Virus record (IMG/VR): IMGVR_UViG_3300037069_000773
Location: 1 to 40,463 of that record
DNA: 40,463 nt
Strand: one strand, 5' to 3'
DNA from: a virus
Positions 15,919 to 40,463 of the stretch are shown here, in pieces. The translations under genes were made by a program, and so were the position numbers. A model generated the notes under the pieces. It saw nothing but the letters and a program-made list of their open reading frames with translations. It searched no databases and had not been told where the DNA came from. Each line of letters opens with the position of its first letter. Position 1 is the first letter of the stretch.

Positions 15919-15995
15919 TGGCGCACCCGGCAGGGCTCGAACCTGCAACATTCGGAGTAGAAATCCGACGCTCTGTCCAGTTGAGCTACGGGAGC
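15919..15995 (-). tRNA. tRNA-Arg(TCT), reads AGA
   Basis: A 77-nt cloverleaf with encoded CCA. Acceptor GCTCCCG pairs with CGGGTGC (one T-T mismatch at the third pair), D stem GCTC/GAGC, anticodon stem TCGGA/TCCGA with loop TTTCTAC (anticodon TCT), T stem GCAGG/CCTGC with loop TTCGAGC. It decodes AGA, a rare codon in GC-rich hosts, as phage tRNAs often do. Confidence 0.9.
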
Positions 15996-18205: not shown

Positions 18206-18366
18206 GGCCTCAGTTCCACTATCTTTCCAAGCTCTCTCAGGATCGGCGCTCGACTGATAACCCCGAACACCGTCCCGCTTGTCGTGACGATAGCCCCATC
18301 CACCAGCTCGCACCGATCAAGGTAGCTCACGCACCATGGCTCACCGTGTCGGGCGAGACAGGTCAT
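18202..18366 (-). CDS. 54-residue protein downstream of the initiator, unknown function
   Basis: MTCLARHGEPWCVSYLDRCE begins at an ATG that overlaps the stop of the initiator gene (ATGA), and its TGA overlaps the ATG of the next gene. The remainder is beta-like (GAIVTTSGTVFGVIS) and then helical (ILRELGKIVELRP). Three Cys lie in the first 20 residues. It is too short for usual gene calls but double overlap makes it convincing. Function unknown. Confidence 0.7.
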   Translation of the reverse strand: MTCLARHGEPWCVSYLDRCELVDGAIVTTSGTVFGVISRAPILRELGKIVELRP

Positions 18367-18902
18367 GCGCGCTGGCCTTTCGGGAAAATACCAAGGGCTC
18401 GCCTAGCCTCTTCTGCTAGGGCCTTTCGGTTCGCGCGTGTCTCCTCCGCGCTGATCGCCGGTTGCCCCTCTAAGGGCAAAACCGGCGCATCGCGCAATGA
18501 AGGTTCTTTTATTGGTTCAATGAAGGTTCTGTACGCCATGGTGTCCCCACCTTGGCGACGTGGTGTCCCCACCCCCCCCGACACGGTGTCCCCACGGTGG
18601 GGACGTGGTGTCCCCACCCCTGGGGACGTGGTGTCCCCACCTATGTGGATGGAAATCATGTCGCTGGTCCGAACGTTCTTGCGGTACCGAGCCTTGCGCG
18701 TCAGGTAGCCCTTGGCTTCCAAGGATGCGAAAATCCGCAGGATGTTGCGTTGGGACAGGCATGTGTCGTGAGCCAAGCGGCTATGCGACGGCCAGCACTG
18801 CATGTTGTGGTCGGCGTAGTTCGCCAGCACGATAAGCAGGAGCTTTTCGGATGACGTGACACCTTGAACCGCAAGAGCGGCGGTAATTGACTGAACGCTC
18901 AC
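18363..18902 (-). CDS. Winged-helix replication initiator-like protein
   Basis: A 179-residue protein. Residues 1-75 are a helix-turn-helix of the HTH_36 type (SSEKLLLIVLANYADHNMQC, WPSHSRLAHDTCLSQRNILR, then FASLEAKGYLTRKARYRKN), the domain of phage O-like and other replication initiators. Residues 88-121 are a repeat region (GGDT every 15 residues) that encodes the iterons of the putative origin. The C-terminal helix (about 150-170) is Ala/Glu/Arg-rich and may contact host proteins. As in lambda O, the origin lies within the initiator gene. No helicase or loader follows it. Confidence 0.75.
   Translation of the reverse strand: MSVQSITAALAVQGVTSSEKLLLIVLANYADHNMQCWPSHSRLAHDTCLSQRNILRIFASLEAKGYLTRKARYRKNVRTSDMISIHIGGDTTSPGVGTPRPHRGDTVSGGVGTPRRQGGDTMAYRTFIEPIKEPSLRDAPVLPLEGQPAISAEETRANRKALAEEARRALGIFPKGQRA
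18541..18640. repeat. Five iterons: putative replication origin
   Basis: GTGTCCCCAC occurs five times in the same direction, starting at 18541, 18563, 18586, 18608 and 18631 (spacing 22, 23, 22, 23). Between units, GTGGGGAC also appears so that GTGGGGAC-GTGGT-GTCCCCAC makes inverted pairs near 18597-18617. They lie in the middle of the initiator-like gene, the position of the lambda origin. A binding array for that protein is the best explanation. Confidence 0.7.
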
Positions 18903-19694: not shown

Positions 19695-19961
19695 TCACAG
19701 CCACCGCTCCCCTTCGCCCAAAGCCGTTTGGCCGGCCACTGTGATATACCAAACCACCGGAATAACCCCGATGGGCCTCCAGACATGCTTGGCGTTAAAG
19801 AGACGGCCAAGAGCCCCGTTCACGTTGTCTATGGAGGTCTCTAGGCGCTTGGCGATGGCTGTGCTGGTGGAATCTCCATCGTTCACGCAGGTCAGCACCG
19901 CGCAGAGCAATCCGCCAGGCTCCCGGCGCTCACCCTCGGTCTTGCGGACATAGGCGCTCAC
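19695..19961 (-). CDS. Winged-helix-like DNA-binding protein
   Basis: An 88-residue protein. I choose GTG 19961 because it overlaps the preceding stop (GTGA); an in-frame TTG at 19973 is less likely. The segment TSTAIAKRLETSIDNVNGAL, followed by a short helix and a beta wing (HVWRPIGVIPVVWYITVAG), has the winged helix-turn-helix layout. It is a likely small transcription regulator in the operon with the GcrA-like genes. Confidence 0.65.
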   Translation of the reverse strand: MSAYVRKTEGERREPGGLLCAVLTCVNDGDSTSTAIAKRLETSIDNVNGALGRLFNAKHVWRPIGVIPVVWYITVAGQTALGEGERWL

Positions 19962-20137
19962 CGAGACACCCAACGATTGACCTCAGGCTTCGGTCGCGCG
20001 AAATCATTCCACAAGAGCAAATCCAGAACATCGTGGCGAATGTTAGTGGCCACGGCGGCCTGCCTCAAGGTGTCGCCAGCCGCGATGCGCCTGCGGGCCT
20101 TTTCCATCATGCGTGGGGTGATTTCATACTGGCTCAT
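19958..20137 (-). CDS. 59-residue helix-turn-helix-like protein
   Basis: Encodes MSQYEITPRMMEKARRRIAA followed by GDTLRQAAVATNIRHDVLDL, a resolvase-like helix-turn-helix pattern, and WNDFARPKPEVNRWVSR. The ATG overlaps the stop of the GcrA-like gene (ATGA), and the TGA overlaps the next start (GTGA). It is too short for many gene finders. Putative DNA-binding protein, target unknown. Confidence 0.7.
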   Translation of the reverse strand: MSQYEITPRMMEKARRRIAAGDTLRQAAVATNIRHDVLDLLLWNDFARPKPEVNRWVSR

Positions 20138-20736
20138 CGGATATTAACCCGGCTTAAAAGCTGCTTCTCCGCAAAGGCCCGTTGAGAGGCGTTCCGAAGC
20201 TTGGCGTCATGAGCGATCTGGGATGGCGAGCGAGAGGCTTGGAACGCTACGCGCTTGTGACCAGGGCAATACTCCCGGAGATTGCCGTCAGGATGACAGC
20301 AGTGCAGACGAGAGCCATCCTCGGTCAGACCCAAGGGCCAGCGACAACCCCCAAACAGCGGGTCCATGATCGTTCTAGGGTGAAGCGAAATCAGATCTGG
20401 GTTAACCTCTTCCACGACAACCTCCATGAGAAGACGGCGGACACGGTCGCTACTGGCGGTGGCTTGAGCGGTTGGCTTAAGCGGTGTTTCCTTGGGCGGC
20501 TTCGGCTTCGAAACCTTGACGACGACCTTTTGCATGCGGACGACATCCCGCAGCATTCCGAGCCTAGACCGCTTGCCTATGATCGCATTGCGGGAAAACC
20601 TTGTTCCGTATTTCTCGTTCAGCCAACGGGCCATCTCGGAGGACGATAACCCCCGCTCATCGATAAGGCGAAGGTCGGCCACGATCAGCTCGTTGTCCCA
20701 GGGGTTCTGGCGTGCTTCGGGGTCTTTGTGGGGCAT
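20134..20736 (-). CDS. GcrA-family regulator
   Basis: A 200-residue protein. The N-terminus (about 14-62) matches the GcrA DNA-binding domain: WDNELIVADLRLIDERGLSS, SEMARWLN, then FSRNAIIGKRSRLGM. The C-terminus has the GcrA Cys/His-type signature: CRWP (131-134), HCCHPDG and EYCPGHKRVAFQ. GcrA (known) activates genes at CcrM-methylated GANTC promoters with sigma-70 RNA polymerase in alphaproteobacteria. AGGAGG precedes the ATG. Compared with host GcrA it has a longer basic Lys/Pro linker (residues 70-95). It probably redirects host cell-cycle transcription. Confidence 0.85.
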   Translation of the reverse strand: MPHKDPEARQNPWDNELIVADLRLIDERGLSSSEMARWLNEKYGTRFSRNAIIGKRSRLGMLRDVVRMQKVVVKVSKPKPPKETPLKPTAQATASSDRVRRLLMEVVVEEVNPDLISLHPRTIMDPLFGGCRWPLGLTEDGSRLHCCHPDGNLREYCPGHKRVAFQASRSPSQIAHDAKLRNASQRAFAEKQLLSRVNIR

Positions 20737-20744
20737 TACGCCTC

Positions 20745-21056
20745 CTATGTTTCGCGAATGGTTACGCCATGAAAGGCGCGCATCATCTTGGCTTTGAGGT
20801 TGTACATCGGGGTCGTCATGCCCTTCACGTCCTCGACCACGATCTGTCCGTTTTCGACGTATCGGAAGTCAGCCTTGTAGAAGCCCAGCTTCACGCCGTT
20901 CAGAACGAAGTCGTAGCGCGGCTGAAGTTCAAGGCGTAGAATGGCCCCAGACCGCTCAAGCAGGCGAAGTTCTGAGTATCGCCTAGCCTCCTTGGTGGAA
21001 TGAAACTCGATGCCGTCCACCGTCGTCTTGCGGCTCTTGAACTTCGAAGTCTTCAC
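20745..21056 (-). CDS. DUF1064 phage nuclease (PD-(D/E)XK-like)
   Basis: A 103-residue protein starting at GTG 21056, which overlaps the preceding stop (GTGA). It matches DUF1064: TTVDGIEFHSTKEARRYSEL (Glu in the first helix), then LELQPRYDFVLNGVKL and YKADFRYVENGQIVVEDVKG, where Asp-x-n-Glu-x-Lys (KADF...VEDVKG) forms a PD-(D/E)XK core. Members are thought to be Holliday-junction or other structure-selective endonucleases. Likely role: processing recombination or replication intermediates. Confidence 0.8.
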   Translation of the reverse strand: MKTSKFKSRKTTVDGIEFHSTKEARRYSELRLLERSGAILRLELQPRYDFVLNGVKLGFYKADFRYVENGQIVVEDVKGMTTPMYNLKAKMMRAFHGVTIRET

Positions 21057-21922
21057 GTGGGAGAACCCCAGCGCATTTCCGCCAGCTTGTGACCCTGGGC
21101 CCGGCGACGTTCCCGCTCAGCATCGCTAAGCCGGTACGCCCGGCGTTTGGTTCCGGCGTCGCTTCGAACCTTCCGCCCGTCTTCATGGAAATCAGGAAGC
21201 GGTTGACGAGGAGCAGGTTGTTGGCGAGCCTTGAAGGCATAGCGCTCCATGGCCTCGGTAAGGGGTTTGTCGTCAAGAAACCGGAGACCAAGGCTCCGCG
21301 CTCGGATTTCGATCTGACGGACGCGCTCTCGGGTAATGCCGAAATGAGCACCAACGTCCTTCAACGACAGACCTGAAAGGCGAAGCTCCATCATCTGCCG
21401 ATGGCGGAACGGAAGACGATCAAGGGCGGGGGCATTGATGACTGACAGCTCTTGCAGGCGCATCTCCAAGGCCCTGGCCTCAGCCTCAGCACGGGCCTTT
21501 GCAACAGCCTCGCGCTCGGCTCGAACCTGATATCCAAGCTTCTTGGCTGGAATGAACACGGCTGGGTTCTGCGCCCACTTCTGAAGGCTTCCAACGCTTA
21601 CGCCAAGGCGCTCAGAGGTTTTCCGAAACGAGAAACCTGCGTAGTGTACGGCAAGAGCTGTGATGCGCTTATCCATGGGAATGCCAACCGGACCCAAGCG
21701 AGAATAACCAACCCGCTTGAATGGCTTTCGCGATGGATTTGGTGTAGAGTAATCACCACGAACGGCCTTACCATTCATGTGCAGACCAATGCGCCAGCAC
21801 TTGCCGAGGATGGCATTACGAGACACGCCGAGCTTCTCTCCTGCTTGACGAGCACTAAAACCCTCTGAGGACAAGCGGCGCAGTTCATCAAGCTTTTCAG
21901 GCGTCCATTCAAAGGCGCTCAT
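21053..21922 (-). CDS. GcrA-type domain plus sigma-70 region-4-like domain fusion
   Basis: A 289-residue protein; the ATG at 21922 overlaps the previous stop and follows GGAGA, so longer upstream versions (22033) are rejected. Domain order: a GcrA-type DNA-binding domain (residues 5-46: WTPEKLDELRRLSSEGFSAR then LGVSRNAILGKCWRIGL); a second helix-turn-helix (81-115: RITALAVHYAGFSFRKTSER then LGVSVGSLQKW); a coiled coil (130-158); a sigma-70 region-4 motif (169-207: LPFRHRQMMELRLSGLSLKD then FGITRERVRQIE); and a basic tail ending LSDAERERRRAQGHKLAEM. It should bind DNA and perhaps RNA polymerase. No region-2 is present, so it is not a full sigma factor. Confidence 0.8.
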   Translation of the reverse strand: MSAFEWTPEKLDELRRLSSEGFSARQAGEKLGVSRNAILGKCWRIGLHMNGKAVRGDYSTPNPSRKPFKRVGYSRLGPVGIPMDKRITALAVHYAGFSFRKTSERLGVSVGSLQKWAQNPAVFIPAKKLGYQVRAEREAVAKARAEAEARALEMRLQELSVINAPALDRLPFRHRQMMELRLSGLSLKDVGAHFGITRERVRQIEIRARSLGLRFLDDKPLTEAMERYAFKARQQPAPRQPLPDFHEDGRKVRSDAGTKRRAYRLSDAERERRRAQGHKLAEMRWGSPT

Positions 21923-22131
21923 TTGCAGATCTCCAGACGAAGCAATTCTGAGGTTACGTGCTGAAGCCCTGGCAGAAGGTGCGAGTGCCGCTTCTTCCTC
22001 CGCTTGAGCGAGGCAATTTCCGCCGAATACCACTCCCGTTCTTCTCGCAGGTCTTCAACGGTAAGGGCCTTGAGGCGAGGCCCGGCGAAACGGTCGAACA
22101 GCCAGAACAAGGCGCGGTCTATCCAAGACAT
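21919..22131 (-). CDS. Small amphipathic/coiled-coil protein, unknown function
   Basis: A 70-residue protein. The N-terminus SWIDRALFWLFDRFAG is an aromatic amphipathic helix that could lie on a membrane; the rest (LREEREWYSAEIASLKRRKK) is a charged coiled coil. Its stop overlaps the ATG of the GcrA/sigma fusion gene (ATGA). The start overlaps the end of the 38-residue gene by 13 bases. Role unknown. Confidence 0.7.
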   Translation of the reverse strand: MSWIDRALFWLFDRFAGPRLKALTVEDLREEREWYSAEIASLKRRKKRHSHLLPGLQHVTSELLRLEICK

Positions 22132-22235
22132 GCTTTGATTCCAATCATGATGGCGAGCCAAAGGACGACGCTTGCAGGAATGGCCCACTTGAGCTTCCTG
22201 CGGGTGGCTTCGGATAGGTTTCCGGGGTTCTTCAC
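22119..22235 (-). CDS. 38-residue single-helix membrane peptide
   Basis: Starts at GTG 22235 with GGAGG seven bases upstream. Encodes a polar N-terminus (KNPGNLSEATRRKLKW) and one transmembrane helix (AIPASVVLWLAIMIGIKACL). Too short for most gene finders. Part of the overlapping minus-strand early operon; function unknown. Confidence 0.65.
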   Translation of the reverse strand: MKNPGNLSEATRRKLKWAIPASVVLWLAIMIGIKACLG

Positions 22236-22248
22236 GGCGTAGCCTCCG

Positions 22249-22428
22249 TTATGGGTTGGCCGCTTGCTCCTTGGCGACCTCAAGCATGATGCGGGCTCTG
22301 ATCCTGTCCCGGCAACGCTTGAGCTGCCATCGGGCGTTCTCGCGGTTTCCTTCAAGCTCCACGATCTCGTGTCGCTCATCATCGGTCATCCGTTCAAGGA
22401 TGATGTCTGCGGGTTTCTTGCGTGGCAT
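22249..22428 (-). CDS. 59-residue basic protein, first gene of minus-strand operon
   Basis: ATG at 22428 with GGAGG five bases upstream. Encodes PRKKPADIILERMTDDERHE then a charged helix (WQLKRCRDRIRARIMLEVAK). Highly helical, Arg-rich, no known family recognised. As the first gene after the divergent promoter it is likely expressed immediately after infection. Confidence 0.7.
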   Translation of the reverse strand: MPRKKPADIILERMTDDERHEIVELEGNRENARWQLKRCRDRIRARIMLEVAKEQAANP

Positions 22429-22548
22429 GATGCCTCCTTGTTGCTCCCCATATAGGCATATAGCCTCGCCGTCGGCAAGCGATAAAAAGATGTTGACGGC
22501 TAGATTGGCGAGTGGTTAGTTAGGTCCAACGAACAACGGAGACACGCC
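22429..22548. promoter_or_regulatory. Divergent early promoter region
   Basis: The only long non-coding gap between opposite operons. Minus strand: TTGCCG (22478-22473), 18 bases, then TATATG (22454-22449), with a second TATATG at 22462-22457. Plus strand: TTGACG (22493-22498), 17 bases, then a weak TTAGTT (22516-22521). Both read into their operons with ribosome sites close to the first ATGs. I see no GANTC here. Confidence 0.5.
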
Positions 22549-22842
22549 ATGTCCTACGTCACCAACCAAGAGAAGGCCCACACCGCCAGCCTGAACCAAT
22601 CGGCGCAGGAGCAAGACGAGCTGGCCGAGCGCCGCTTCCAGTTGGAGCAATCGCCGCTCTACAAGGCCCTGGTTGACCTATGTGCCTTGGCCGAGGAAAC
22701 CACCGCCCAGACCGCCCGCATCCGAGGTACGCTGAGCCAAGAAGAGGTGGATATGATGAACCTCGCGGAGGCCATCAGCGACCAACTCGGCGGATCGGAT
22801 GCGCCTTACGCCGTGGATTTCATCCTGTCGGCGGTGGCGTGA
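22549..22842 (+). CDS. First plus-strand early protein, unknown function
   Basis: A 97-residue protein with CGGAG eight bases before the ATG. Residues 8-60 are rich in Gln, Glu and Ala (ASLNQSAQEQDELAERRFQL), a helical segment, followed by a helical C-terminus ending in DFILSAVA. No family recognised. Being first in the plus operon it may be a host-takeover factor. Confidence 0.75.
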   Translation: MSYVTNQEKAHTASLNQSAQEQDELAERRFQLEQSPLYKALVDLCALAEETTAQTARIRGTLSQEEVDMMNLAEAISDQLGGSDAPYAVDFILSAVA

Positions 22843-30078: not shown

Positions 30079-30233
30079 GCGTCGAACCCTTCTTCACCTA
30101 TCGGCCCGCCCACAATCGCATGCCGTCGTGGCCCGATTGGATGGCATGGATGGACCACTGTTTCCCCGTCGTCGGCTGGAACCTGCCGCTTTGGCGCGTC
30201 GCTGGCATTCGCCGCAGGAAGGACGACCGATGA
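30075..30233 (+). CDS. Small Trp-rich protein, unknown function
   Basis: A 52-residue protein with GAGGAGG seven bases upstream. FFTYRPAHNRMPSWPDWMAW then MDHCFPVVGWNLPLWRVAGI; six Trp residues. Too short for some gene finders. It could form a small compact fold or be membrane-associated. The stop overlaps the next ATG. Not recognised. Confidence 0.6.
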   Translation: MSVEPFFTYRPAHNRMPSWPDWMAWMDHCFPVVGWNLPLWRVAGIRRRKDDR

Positions 30234-30439
30234 CCCCCGACCAAGACACCCTGGATAAGGCCCGGGCGAGGCTGGAAGACCTGGCACCCGTCCAGGCTCA
30301 GTTTCTCAAGGCCAATATCTCCGATGCCTACGCGGAGGCGGATCGTTCCCCGATTGCTATAGTGAAGCGAGGCGTTCGAACGCACGTCCTAATGTCGGCG
30401 GAACATTACCGCGCCCTGCTCTCGGAGAAGCCGTCATGA
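30230..30439 (+). CDS. Phd/YefM-like antitoxin-type protein
   Basis: A 69-residue protein from ATG 30230 (a longer frame at 30128 is unlikely). FLKANISDAYAEADRSPIAI then VKRGVRTHVLMSAEHYRALL is the Phd/YefM pattern (isolated strand, then AIVKRG and V-MSAEHY-LL). These proteins bind DNA and neutralise Doc/YoeB/RelE-type toxins; no such toxin gene is adjacent. It may act as a DNA-binding repressor or to neutralise host toxins. ATGA overlap with the previous gene. Confidence 0.65.
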   Translation: MTPDQDTLDKARARLEDLAPVQAQFLKANISDAYAEADRSPIAIVKRGVRTHVLMSAEHYRALLSEKPS

Positions 30440-32599: not shown

Positions 32600-33157
32600 A
32601 TGAGTGACCTAGACTACGACGTCGTGGCCCAGTGCCTCAAGTATGAACCCGAGACCGGTAAGCTATTTTGGCTGAAGCGTCCGGAGGAGTTCTTCGACAC
32701 GAGCCAAAGCGCCGCGCGCTGGAACGGCCGCGCTGGGAAAGAGGCCTTCACAGCCAACGCGAATGGGTACAGGCACGGGAAGCTCCTCGGTAAGCTTTAC
32801 CGCGCTCATCGGATTGCTTGGTTGCTAACCTATAAGACATGGCCAGTTGCGGAGATCGACCACATCGACGGCGACCGGAGCAACAACCGCATCGCCAACC
32901 TGCGCGATGTGTCCAAAAGTCAGAACCAACGCAATCGGAAAATGGATCCGCTTAACAAGAGCGGCTTCAACGGAGTGTATTGGTACGCGAGAAGCGGCAA
33001 GTGGCGAGCAAAGGTTCACGCAAACGGAAAACATGAACACCTTGGCACATTCGGCACTCTCGAAGAAGCCATCGCAGCCCGCCATGCCGCTAACATCAAA
33101 TACGGCTTCACAGAGCGCCATGGAAAGCCAGCCGGAGCGACGTTCAATGCGCGTTGA
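32600..33157 (+). CDS. HNH endonuclease with AP2 domain
   Basis: A 185-residue protein. HNH core at residues 67-110: RAHRIAWLLTYKTWPVAEID, then HIDGDRSNNRIANLRDVSKS and QNQRNR. The C-terminus (about 120-160: GFNGVYWYARSGKWRAKVHA, LGTFGTLEEAIAARHAANIK) is an AP2 DNA-binding domain. This HNH-AP2 pairing is the usual mobile phage endonuclease. It lies between the terminator and the terminase genes and its end overlaps the next gene. Confidence 0.9.
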   Translation: MSDLDYDVVAQCLKYEPETGKLFWLKRPEEFFDTSQSAARWNGRAGKEAFTANANGYRHGKLLGKLYRAHRIAWLLTYKTWPVAEIDHIDGDRSNNRIANLRDVSKSQNQRNRKMDPLNKSGFNGVYWYARSGKWRAKVHANGKHEHLGTFGTLEEAIAARHAANIKYGFTERHGKPAGATFNAR

Positions 33158-38509: not shown

Positions 38510-40463
38510 ATGACTGATGAAGAACTTCTGCGCATCGTCATTTCCGAGCAACAACGGTCGGTAGGGTTTGACCTAGACGCGGACCTCACCGAACAGCGCG
38601 AGCTTTCCCTTGAGTACTACAAGGGCGAGATGCGTGATGTTCCGTCGATGCCGAACCGCTCCAAGGCTGTCAGCTTGGATGGTAGAGATGCTATCCAATC
38701 GGTCATTCCTGACATCATTGATATCTTCACGACCGGTGATGATGTCGTTGCGTTCGAGCCGGTTGGGCCTGAGGACGAGGAACAAGCCAAGCTTGAGACC
38801 AAAACGCTCAAGCATGTGGTGTTCAACCAGAACCCCGGCTGGCTGAACTTCTATTCGATGTTCCTGGATGCGCTCCAGGCCAAGACCGGCATCATCAAGT
38901 GGTGGGTCGAGGAGGGGGAATACCCCGATAACGTCGAGTTCAAGAACAAGACGGCGATGGAGCTTGAGCAGGCCACGCAGGATGGCTCCGAGCTTGTCGA
39001 GGTCAACCCGTCTGAGCTGATGGCCAGCGGGCTTCTGTCAGAGCCCCTGTACGACTTCACGTTGAAACCGCCTCAAGGTCAGCCCAAGCTGTGCATGGAT
39101 ACGGTCGCGCCCGAAGACCTGACCGTTGCGCGTGATACGACGGTCCGCCTGGCGGATGCGACCTATTGCGCCACGCGCTCCCGGCCTCGCGCTCAGGATC
39201 TCCTCGCTCAGGGTGTTAGCCGAGACATCGTGGATGATCTGCCTGAGTGGGTGGCGACCATTGACAATGCCGTTCCCCTGGCTCGCGACACGGTCCAGGA
39301 GGGTGAGCAGGTTGGAGGCACGTCCACCTTCGACATGCGCCAGGTCGAGGTCGTGGAGCACTACATCCGCATCCGCGAAGGCAAGAGCATCAACCTCTAC
39401 TGCGTCCTGACCGGTGGCCAAGGGGCAAGCTCGGTCCTGATCCGCAAGGAGAAGGTCAACCGCATCCAGATCGCGGCTGTTACGCCTTATCTCGTCTCCC
39501 ACCGCTTCTACGGCAACTCCATGATGGACATGATCATGGACGTTCAGAGGATCAAGACGGTTCTCCAGCGCATGACCCTGGACTCCGGGTATTTCGCCCT
39601 GAACCAGCGCCATGAGGTCGCGGACAACGGCTCCAACGAAAACACCATGGACGACCTGCTGAACAATCAGCCGGGCGTTCCTGTTCGTGTGAAGGTCGCT
39701 GGAACGGTCAATGCCATTCAGTCGCCGGGCCTGAACTTCGACACCCTGGCCCATCTGGAATACTTCTCGACGGTCCTGGAAGAGCGCACGGGCATGGTCC
39801 GCGCTGCTCAGGGCCTTAACCCTGAGACCCTGCATGAGACCAAGGGCGGGATGCTTGCCCTGTTGGGTCGTGCTCAGCGTCGCACGCGGATGATTGCCCG
39901 CACCTTTGCTGAAACGGGTGTGAAGGACATGTATCTTGGGGTTCACGCGACCCTGCGGGAGAACATGACCAAGGCGTTCAACCTGAAGATCAATGACCAG
40001 TGGGTTGAGTCCAATCCCTCGGAGTGGAACTCGCGCGACAACATGGCCATTGAGATCGGTGAAGGAGCCGGGAACAAAGAGCATGACGTGATGGTCGCGC
40101 AAATGCTCGGTCAGGTTCAGGCTCAGGTCATCGAGGGCGGTTACACCGACATTGTCACGCCGGATAACATCTATCACGCCGCCCGGACGATTGCCGAAAA
40201 GGCCGACGTCAAGAACCCTGACGCCTGGTTCTCCGATCCCAAGAAAGCGCCCCCGAAACCTCCGCAGCCCGACCCCGCCGCTATGGAGGTTCAGGCCAAG
40301 GCGGAGCTAGAACAGCAGAAGCTCCAGGCTCAGCAGGAGGCCAATAGCCAAAAGCTTGAGCAGGACGGCCTGAAGGCCCTTGGCGAGCATGACCTGAAGC
40401 AACAGCAGCTTGAGGCCGACACGCAGTTGCGCCAACAGCAGATCCAGGCCGACACCGAAATTT
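38510..40463 (+). CDS. Portal protein, N-terminal and central part (continues at base 1)
   Basis: The ATG at 38510 follows the previous stop directly. Residues 1-60 (TDEELLRIVISEQQRSVGFD, LTEQRELSLEYYKGEMRDVP) and the central region (RDAIQSVIPDIIDIFTTGDD; KTGIIKWWVEEGEYPD; VNRIQIAAVTPYLVSHRFYG; AQGLNPETLHETKGGMLALL) are typical portal sequence of short-tailed phages with SU10-type capsids. It forms the dodecameric ring through which DNA passes. The window ends in a Gln/Glu-rich coiled coil; after the last shared base (40460) three non-matching T bases follow. Full length, with 1-326, is 716 residues. Confidence 0.92.
   Translation, partial: MTDEELLRIVISEQQRSVGFDLDADLTEQRELSLEYYKGEMRDVPSMPNRSKAVSLDGRDAIQSVIPDIIDIFTTGDDVVAFEPVGPEDEEQAKLETKTLKHVVFNQNPGWLNFYSMFLDALQAKTGIIKWWVEEGEYPDNVEFKNKTAMELEQATQDGSELVEVNPSELMASGLLSEPLYDFTLKPPQGQPKLCMDTVAPEDLTVARDTTVRLADATYCATRSRPRAQDLLAQGVSRDIVDDLPEWVATIDNAVPLARDTVQEGEQVGGTSTFDMRQVEVVEHYIRIREGKSINLYCVLTGGQGASSVLIRKEKVNRIQIAAVTPYLVSHRFYGNSMMDMIMDVQRIKTVLQRMTLDSGYFALNQRHEVADNGSNENTMDDLLNNQPGVPVRVKVAGTVNAIQSPGLNFDTLAHLEYFSTVLEERTGMVRAAQGLNPETLHETKGGMLALLGRAQRRTRMIARTFAETGVKDMYLGVHATLRENMTKAFNLKINDQWVESNPSEWNSRDNMAIEIGEGAGNKEHDVMVAQMLGQVQAQVIEGGYTDIVTPDNIYHAARTIAEKADVKNPDAWFSDPKKAPPKPPQPDPAAMEVQAKAELEQQKLQAQQEANSQKLEQDGLKALGEHDLKQQQLEADTQLRQQQIQADTEI
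40335..40460. repeat. Right copy of 126-bp terminal direct repeat
   Basis: Identical to 1-126; position 40335 corresponds to base 1. The last three bases (40461-40463, TTT) do not match the expected CCA and look like a contig-end error. Confidence 0.95.

Follow-up and report, generated by a model that had tools for sequence, protein, structure and literature searches.

We found that a 289-amino-acid (aa) protein, encoded on the minus strand of the virus record IMGVR_UViG_3300037069_000773 at positions 21053-21922, carries a GcrA-type DNA-binding domain and a sigma-70 region 4 on a single chain. The window, by which we mean the whole stretch of DNA analyzed, spans 40,463 bases and is the entire virus record. 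Judged by its domain content, the protein should not be classed as a GcrA or as a sigma factor, because one defining feature of each was looked for and was absent, and it represents a new combination of known modules. An earlier reading made from the letters and their open reading frames (ORFs) without database searches, the sequence-only reading, had singled out this gene together with a 200-aa neighbor at 20134-20736 and had considered the fusion potentially undescribed. Both minus-strand ORFs lie at these coordinates in a tight operon, and a search of the open-access literature turned up no description of a chain joining GcrA and region 4.

From its N-terminus, the protein consists of the GcrA-type domain (residues 5-47, positions 21782-21910), a central homeodomain-like helix-turn-helix (HTH) of the HTH_23 type (residues 85-117, 21572-21670), a long single helix seen in the predicted structure (residues 126-168, 21419-21547), region 4 with its parts 4.1 and 4.2 (residues 166-209, 21296-21427), and a basic tail, all on the minus strand. 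The Pfam profile for GcrA (PF07750) matched residues 5-67 at 48.4 bits (cut-off 26.9), over the DNA-binding part only, and ended at profile position 65 of 155. The recognition helix was intact (R35 N36 A37 I38 L39 G40 K41..R44), and the R35, N36, A37, G40, K41, and R44 kept in it are invariant or nearly so across 151 GcrA domains. HTH_23 scored 38.9 bits (cut-off 24.6), while Sigma70_r4 (PF04545) scored 53.2 bits over profile positions 1-45 of 50, a span that takes in both 4.1 and 4.2. The motif TRERVRQIE, at residues 197-205, keeps the residues that read the -35 element in sigma-70. The NCBIfam sigma70-ECF superfamily model TIGR02937 gave 43.7 bits against a cut-off of 42.9, aligned only over positions 98-158 of its 165.

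Pfam detected no sigma-interacting domain in the 289-aa protein, its sequence holds no CxWP...YCxxH motif, and the NCBIfam GcrA equivalog model gave 33.1 bits, below its cut-off of 280. In Caulobacter GcrA, the sigma-interacting domain comprises residues 108-173 and binds sigma region 2 (PMC7403470). A Sigma70_r2 match was likewise absent at E ≤ 1, and domain profiles revealed no HNH, GIY-YIG, or T5orf172 catalytic domain or nuclease remnant in the 289 aa. The middle HTH and the absence of both the sigma-interacting domain and sigma region 2 had been missed in the sequence-only reading.

The GcrA-type domain and region 4 are both tri-helical HTHs, and in an unsupervised joint alignment they were mixed up, with GcrA domains landing on the region 4 part. 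Because of this confusion we discarded that alignment and built separate hidden Markov models (HMMs), one from 151 DNA-binding domains of proteins with the sigma-interacting motif and the other from 22 region 4-type segments picked by a TRERVRQ-type motif. Residues 5-47 scored 52.8-57.5 bits against the GcrA HMM and at most 1.0 against the region 4 HMM, while residues 168-209 scored 46.4-50.6 bits against the region 4 HMM and 2.2-5.6 against the GcrA HMM, a gap between own and other model of about 40-55 bits. The best of 200 shuffled versions of the protein reached 4.3 bits for GcrA and 0.3 bits for region 4; on these scores, a generic HTH hit was rejected as an explanation of the GcrA match. 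Since the region 4 set had been chosen by its motif, the part preceding the motif was scored separately. Without TRERVRQIE it gave 12.0 bits, as compared to 3.0 for the best of 500 shuffles, and the idea that the match consisted of the motif only was rejected as well.

An AlphaFold2 model built on a 13-sequence alignment had predicted local distance difference test (pLDDT) values of 91-97 in the GcrA-type domain and 92-97 in the helices of region 4, and it placed a 43-residue helix, possibly a coiled coil or spacer, between the middle HTH and region 4. Foldseek matched region 4 to domain 4 of sigmaA (4g6d, TMt 0.81, root-mean-square deviation 2.3) and to other region 4 domains (3vep, 2h27), all with full-query E values above 0.001 owing to the small size of the aligned domain. 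Viral Foldseek matches were mostly HTH proteins with low template-modeling scores, GcrA-labeled phage proteins among them, and were otherwise unused. The sequence-only reading had staked both domains on structural matches that went beyond a generic HTH. Region 4 was confirmed in this way and by sequence, with limits of 166-209 rather than 169-207; the GcrA-type N-terminus was borne out by sequence alone, no GcrA domain being among the 50 Foldseek matches listed.

A DNA pattern for the GcrA recognition helix retrieved at least 120 viral loci, nearly all of them GcrA-like and most with the sigma-interacting motif, and two patterns for the region 4 motif retrieved 33 and at least 120 loci. Among the ORFs of all fetched loci, host stretches included, 308 had a GcrA-type and 139 a region 4-type domain, counts that are not frequencies, as the samples are limited in size and biased by the patterns. 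Only the 289-aa protein and one from locus L284 had both domains at 40 bits or more; L364 (GcrA-like at 21 bits) and L155 (15 bits, with sigma region 2) were weaker double cases. No close relative of the 289-aa protein was found in viral contigs, genomes, or named phages, peptide patterns included. We also searched ∼1,580 alphaproteobacterial genomes (385 class-wide with the 289-aa protein as the query, and three orders with a two-row alignment), scoring at most six candidates per genome; among the matches listed there was no prophage copy of the fusion of GcrA with region 4, and all covered the N-terminal part only. A related protein from locus L246, described below, returned from the viral contigs only itself and one match to the DNA-binding domain, and neither it nor the L284 protein had a match in named phages. 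The joining of the two domains is thus rare as well as real, while phage GcrAs and region 4-type HTHs are commonplace singly.

Multi-HTH proteins related to the 289-aa protein recurred at comparable genomic positions. The L284 protein (302 aa) likewise has a GcrA-type domain and a region 4-type HTH, the latter a C-terminal TRERVRQ unit; it differs in that its region 4 is largely confined to 4.2 and that its two further HTHs are other ones. The L283 version of this gene is truncated at its C-terminal end. The L246 protein (167 aa) has the GcrA-type domain, the central HTH, and the AERERR tail in common with the 289-aa protein (E 2e-13) but lacks region 4, and neither it nor the L284 protein has a nuclease domain. 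L252 encodes, at a comparable early position, a protein with three HTHs, one of them with TRERVRQ; unlike the 289-aa protein, it is HNH-like at its C-terminus and lacks a clear GcrA-type domain. In L246 the gene order is a Cro-like gene, the GcrA-domain and HTH protein, RusA, HNH, and a full GcrA. An XRE gene is followed in L252 by the multi-HTH gene with TRERVRQ and, further on, by a full GcrA; in L284 and L283, a Cro-like gene comes before the gene combining the GcrA-type domain, HTHs, and TRERVRQ. The full GcrA is downstream of the multi-HTH gene in L246, L252, and L283, and in four phage lineages the early operon encodes such a multi-HTH protein, with a full GcrA following within a few genes.

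The 200-aa neighbor (20134-20736, minus strand), which had been assigned to the GcrA family before, is by its profile matches an ordinary divergent phage GcrA with a predicted sigma region 2-binding C-terminal motif. PF07750 matched its residues 13-169 at 58.2 bits, with both the DNA-binding and the sigma-interacting domain present; it aligned with 7ye1 along its length, and the C-terminal motif reads CRWPLG...CC...YCPGH. Its score against the GcrA equivalog NF050816 was 39.8 bits (cut-off 280), below the level for orthology with host GcrA. The loop preceding the recognition helix was often longer in phage GcrAs (e.g. NEKYGTRFSRNA) than in host GcrAs, as in this protein, L010, and L246, and may mark a phage subtype. 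Phage GcrAs have been described before, namely phiCbK gp222 (PMC3556154) and gp5 of Agrobacterium phage Atu_ph08 (PMC6630229), and the 200-aa protein is of the same kind as these and the homolog of Caulobacter phage DMCA. In DMCA, DUF1064 is followed by GcrA, as in the window, but an equivalent of the 289-aa protein is missing next to this pair, and the 157-aa protein encoded ahead of it matches no HTH family. The GcrA of Rhizobium phage RHph_Y1_10 adjoins a replication gene. Compared with GcrA itself (PF07750; Caulobacter GcrA, PDB 5yiu and 7ye1), the 200-aa protein has the whole layout, whereas the 289-aa protein keeps the DNA-binding domain with its RNAxxGKxxR helix, has W for the common H two residues past GK, and carries HTH_23 and region 4 in place of the sigma region 2-binding C-terminal domain. 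Its likeness to sigma-70 (PF04545, TIGR02937) extends to 4.1 and 4.2 with TRERVRQIE and to the fold of sigmaA domain 4; having no sigma region 2, it is not a complete sigma factor.

The early minus-strand operon has the gene order 89-aa ORF, 289-aa protein, DUF1064 nuclease, GcrA, small ORFs, HNH, and O-like initiator. There was no family match for its first ORF (59 aa, 22249-22428) or for the 89-aa ORF directly upstream of the 289-aa gene (21919-22188). Between the 289-aa and 200-aa genes lies a DUF1064 or phage Holliday-junction-resolvase-type nuclease (20745-21056; phrog_190, 1.8e-33). Downstream are a 59-aa protein (19958-20137), a 92-aa protein (19695-19973, with a TTG start and a possible ATG at 19951), and, in the same operon, the replication initiation O-like protein (18363-18902). 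The two small proteins, called wHTH- and HTH-like in the sequence-only reading, had sub-threshold matches only, to an HTH (59 aa) and of a winged HTH-like type (92 aa). Three overlaps between a stop codon and the next start codon make the operon tight: ATGA joins the 89-aa ORF to the 289-aa gene, GTGA the 289-aa gene to DUF1064, and ATGA again the 200-aa gene to the 59-aa ORF. No Cro-like gene was recognized in the window. Repeats based on GTGGGGACACC (families D3/D5) lie at 18534-18641, within the O-like gene, and are reminiscent of phage lambda, in which gene O contains the origin iterons.

Region 4-type HTHs were found in true sigma factors, in XRE-like proteins that carry region 4 but lack sigma region 2, in small stand-alone proteins, and in HNH, GIY-YIG, and T5orf172 nucleases. 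The combination of an XRE-like N-terminus with a full region 4 recurred in phages (L158, L348, L402, and others). At the C-terminus of an HNH_3 endonuclease in L139 (1095-2042) there was a sigma-70 region 4 that looked complete (66.3 bits), and T5orf172-like nucleases in L373, L414, and L438 had HTH arrays with TRERVRQ in one HTH. The nucleases of L139 (HNH_3), L426 (GIY-YIG), and L373 and L414 (T5orf172) share the TRERVRQ HTH module with the 289-aa protein and differ from it in having a nuclease domain and no GcrA-type domain. On nucleases, these HTHs likely have a DNA targeting role and are unlikely to serve RNA polymerase; likeness to region 4 alone is therefore no proof of polymerase contact.

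We tentatively favor, with confidence just short of even, the reading in which the 289-aa protein regulates transcription early in phage infection and binds DNA with three HTH units on one chain. This reading ranks above polymerase docking, which in turn ranks above a DNA-binding role outside transcription and that above a dispensable protein. The regulator would be expressed early. Its GcrA-type domain would probably bind a GcrA-like site, perhaps one containing GANTC, the recognition of which is plausible because the helix RNAILGK..R is kept; GcrA-like N-termini are, however, also present in phages of Lactobacillus, a genus that, to our knowledge, has no GcrA/CcrM system. The homeodomain-like HTH would add a second DNA-reading unit on the same chain, and region 4, at the end of the long helix, would most likely read a -35-like sequence at the same promoters, which could be activated or repressed. 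Because the nearby 200-aa GcrA keeps its sigma region 2-contacting domain, the two proteins may act on overlapping promoters. Several results weigh against such a regulator. Region 4 scored 37.9 bits against an HMM of true sigma factors and 25.9 against one of the nuclease-array type (built from only 10 and 4 sequences, respectively); the predicted template-modeling score of the AlphaFold2 model was 0.35, which gives no reliable mutual placement of the domains; and sigma-70-type promoters and candidate operators around the operon did not rise above chance.

The closeness of region 4 to true sigma factors keeps polymerase docking in contention, although we consider it rather unlikely. The GcrA-type domain and the HTH would here bind phage promoters while region 4 took the beta-flap, where it would replace host sigma region 4 or compete with it, as phage co-activators or split sigma factors do, and host polymerase would be redirected. 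Both 4.1 and 4.2 are present, the 4.1 part beats all shuffles without the motif, the TIGR02937 cut-off is passed, and the predicted fold matches sigmaA domain 4; the recurring XRE-like proteins with a full region 4 and no sigma region 2 point the same way. However, the chain has neither sigma region 2 nor the GcrA sigma-interacting domain, and the L139 nuclease demonstrates that a complete region 4 does not imply polymerase contact. For these reasons, the proposal in the sequence-only reading that host transcription is redirected through such contact was left unsupported.

It is less likely still that the 289-aa protein serves DNA replication, recombination, or homing, for example as a relative of nuclease multi-HTH proteins without the nuclease domain. 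The HNH-like L252 protein at its comparable position, the DUF1064 resolvase-type neighbor, and the HNH and O-like initiator genes downstream speak for such a role, as do the GcrA-like N-termini on 'DNA repair exonuclease' genes of Lactobacillus phages, e.g. PL-1 (L006, 2001-3218). The lack of any nuclease domain in the 289-aa, L246, and L284 proteins argues against it. A two-protein take-over, with the 289-aa region 4 on the beta-flap, phage GcrA on host sigma region 2, and the holoenzyme re-addressed to GcrA-type phage promoters, seems decidedly improbable. Least probable is a rapidly evolving accessory protein that the phage could largely do without and that has no settled function: although close homologs are lacking and the L283 gene is truncated, the signature residues of the domains are intact and similar genes hold comparable operon positions in distinct phages.

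The genome looks complete, and circular or terminally redundant, because it has identical 126-base direct repeats at both ends (1-126 and 40335-40460) and the contig break falls within a portal-like gene. The host is probably an alphaproteobacterium. The terminase resembled (42-47%) its counterparts in EBPR podovirus 2 and in phages infecting Bradyrhizobium, Sulfitobacter, and Rhizobium. GANTC occurred 44 times in the genome versus ∼134 expected (ratio 0.33), a three-fold depletion that fits a CcrM-type host and was also seen in related alphaproteobacterial phages and most alphaproteobacterial stretches sampled; the divergent early region (22428-22549) has no GANTC. The window also holds a tRNA-Arg (TCT) gene (15919-15995, minus strand), a gene for an HNH_3 and AP2 homing-type endonuclease preceding the terminase genes (32600-33157), and, at 30128-30439, a weak Phd/YefM antitoxin-like match under the cut-off (24.3 bits).

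Should region 4 contact RNA polymerase, the phage would have in the 289-aa protein a compact factor that couples the transcription machinery to a host DNA-binding domain under epigenetic tuning. Such a factor would be the single-chain equivalent of GcrA, touching the flap instead of sigma region 2. Should its role be confined to DNA reading, the protein would still exemplify phage regulators assembled from GcrA, homeodomain-like, and region 4 HTH modules. Labels such as "sigma factor" or "GcrA" on multi-HTH proteins of this type can mislead, and the 289-aa gene marks an early-operon position of interest in alphaproteobacterial phages.

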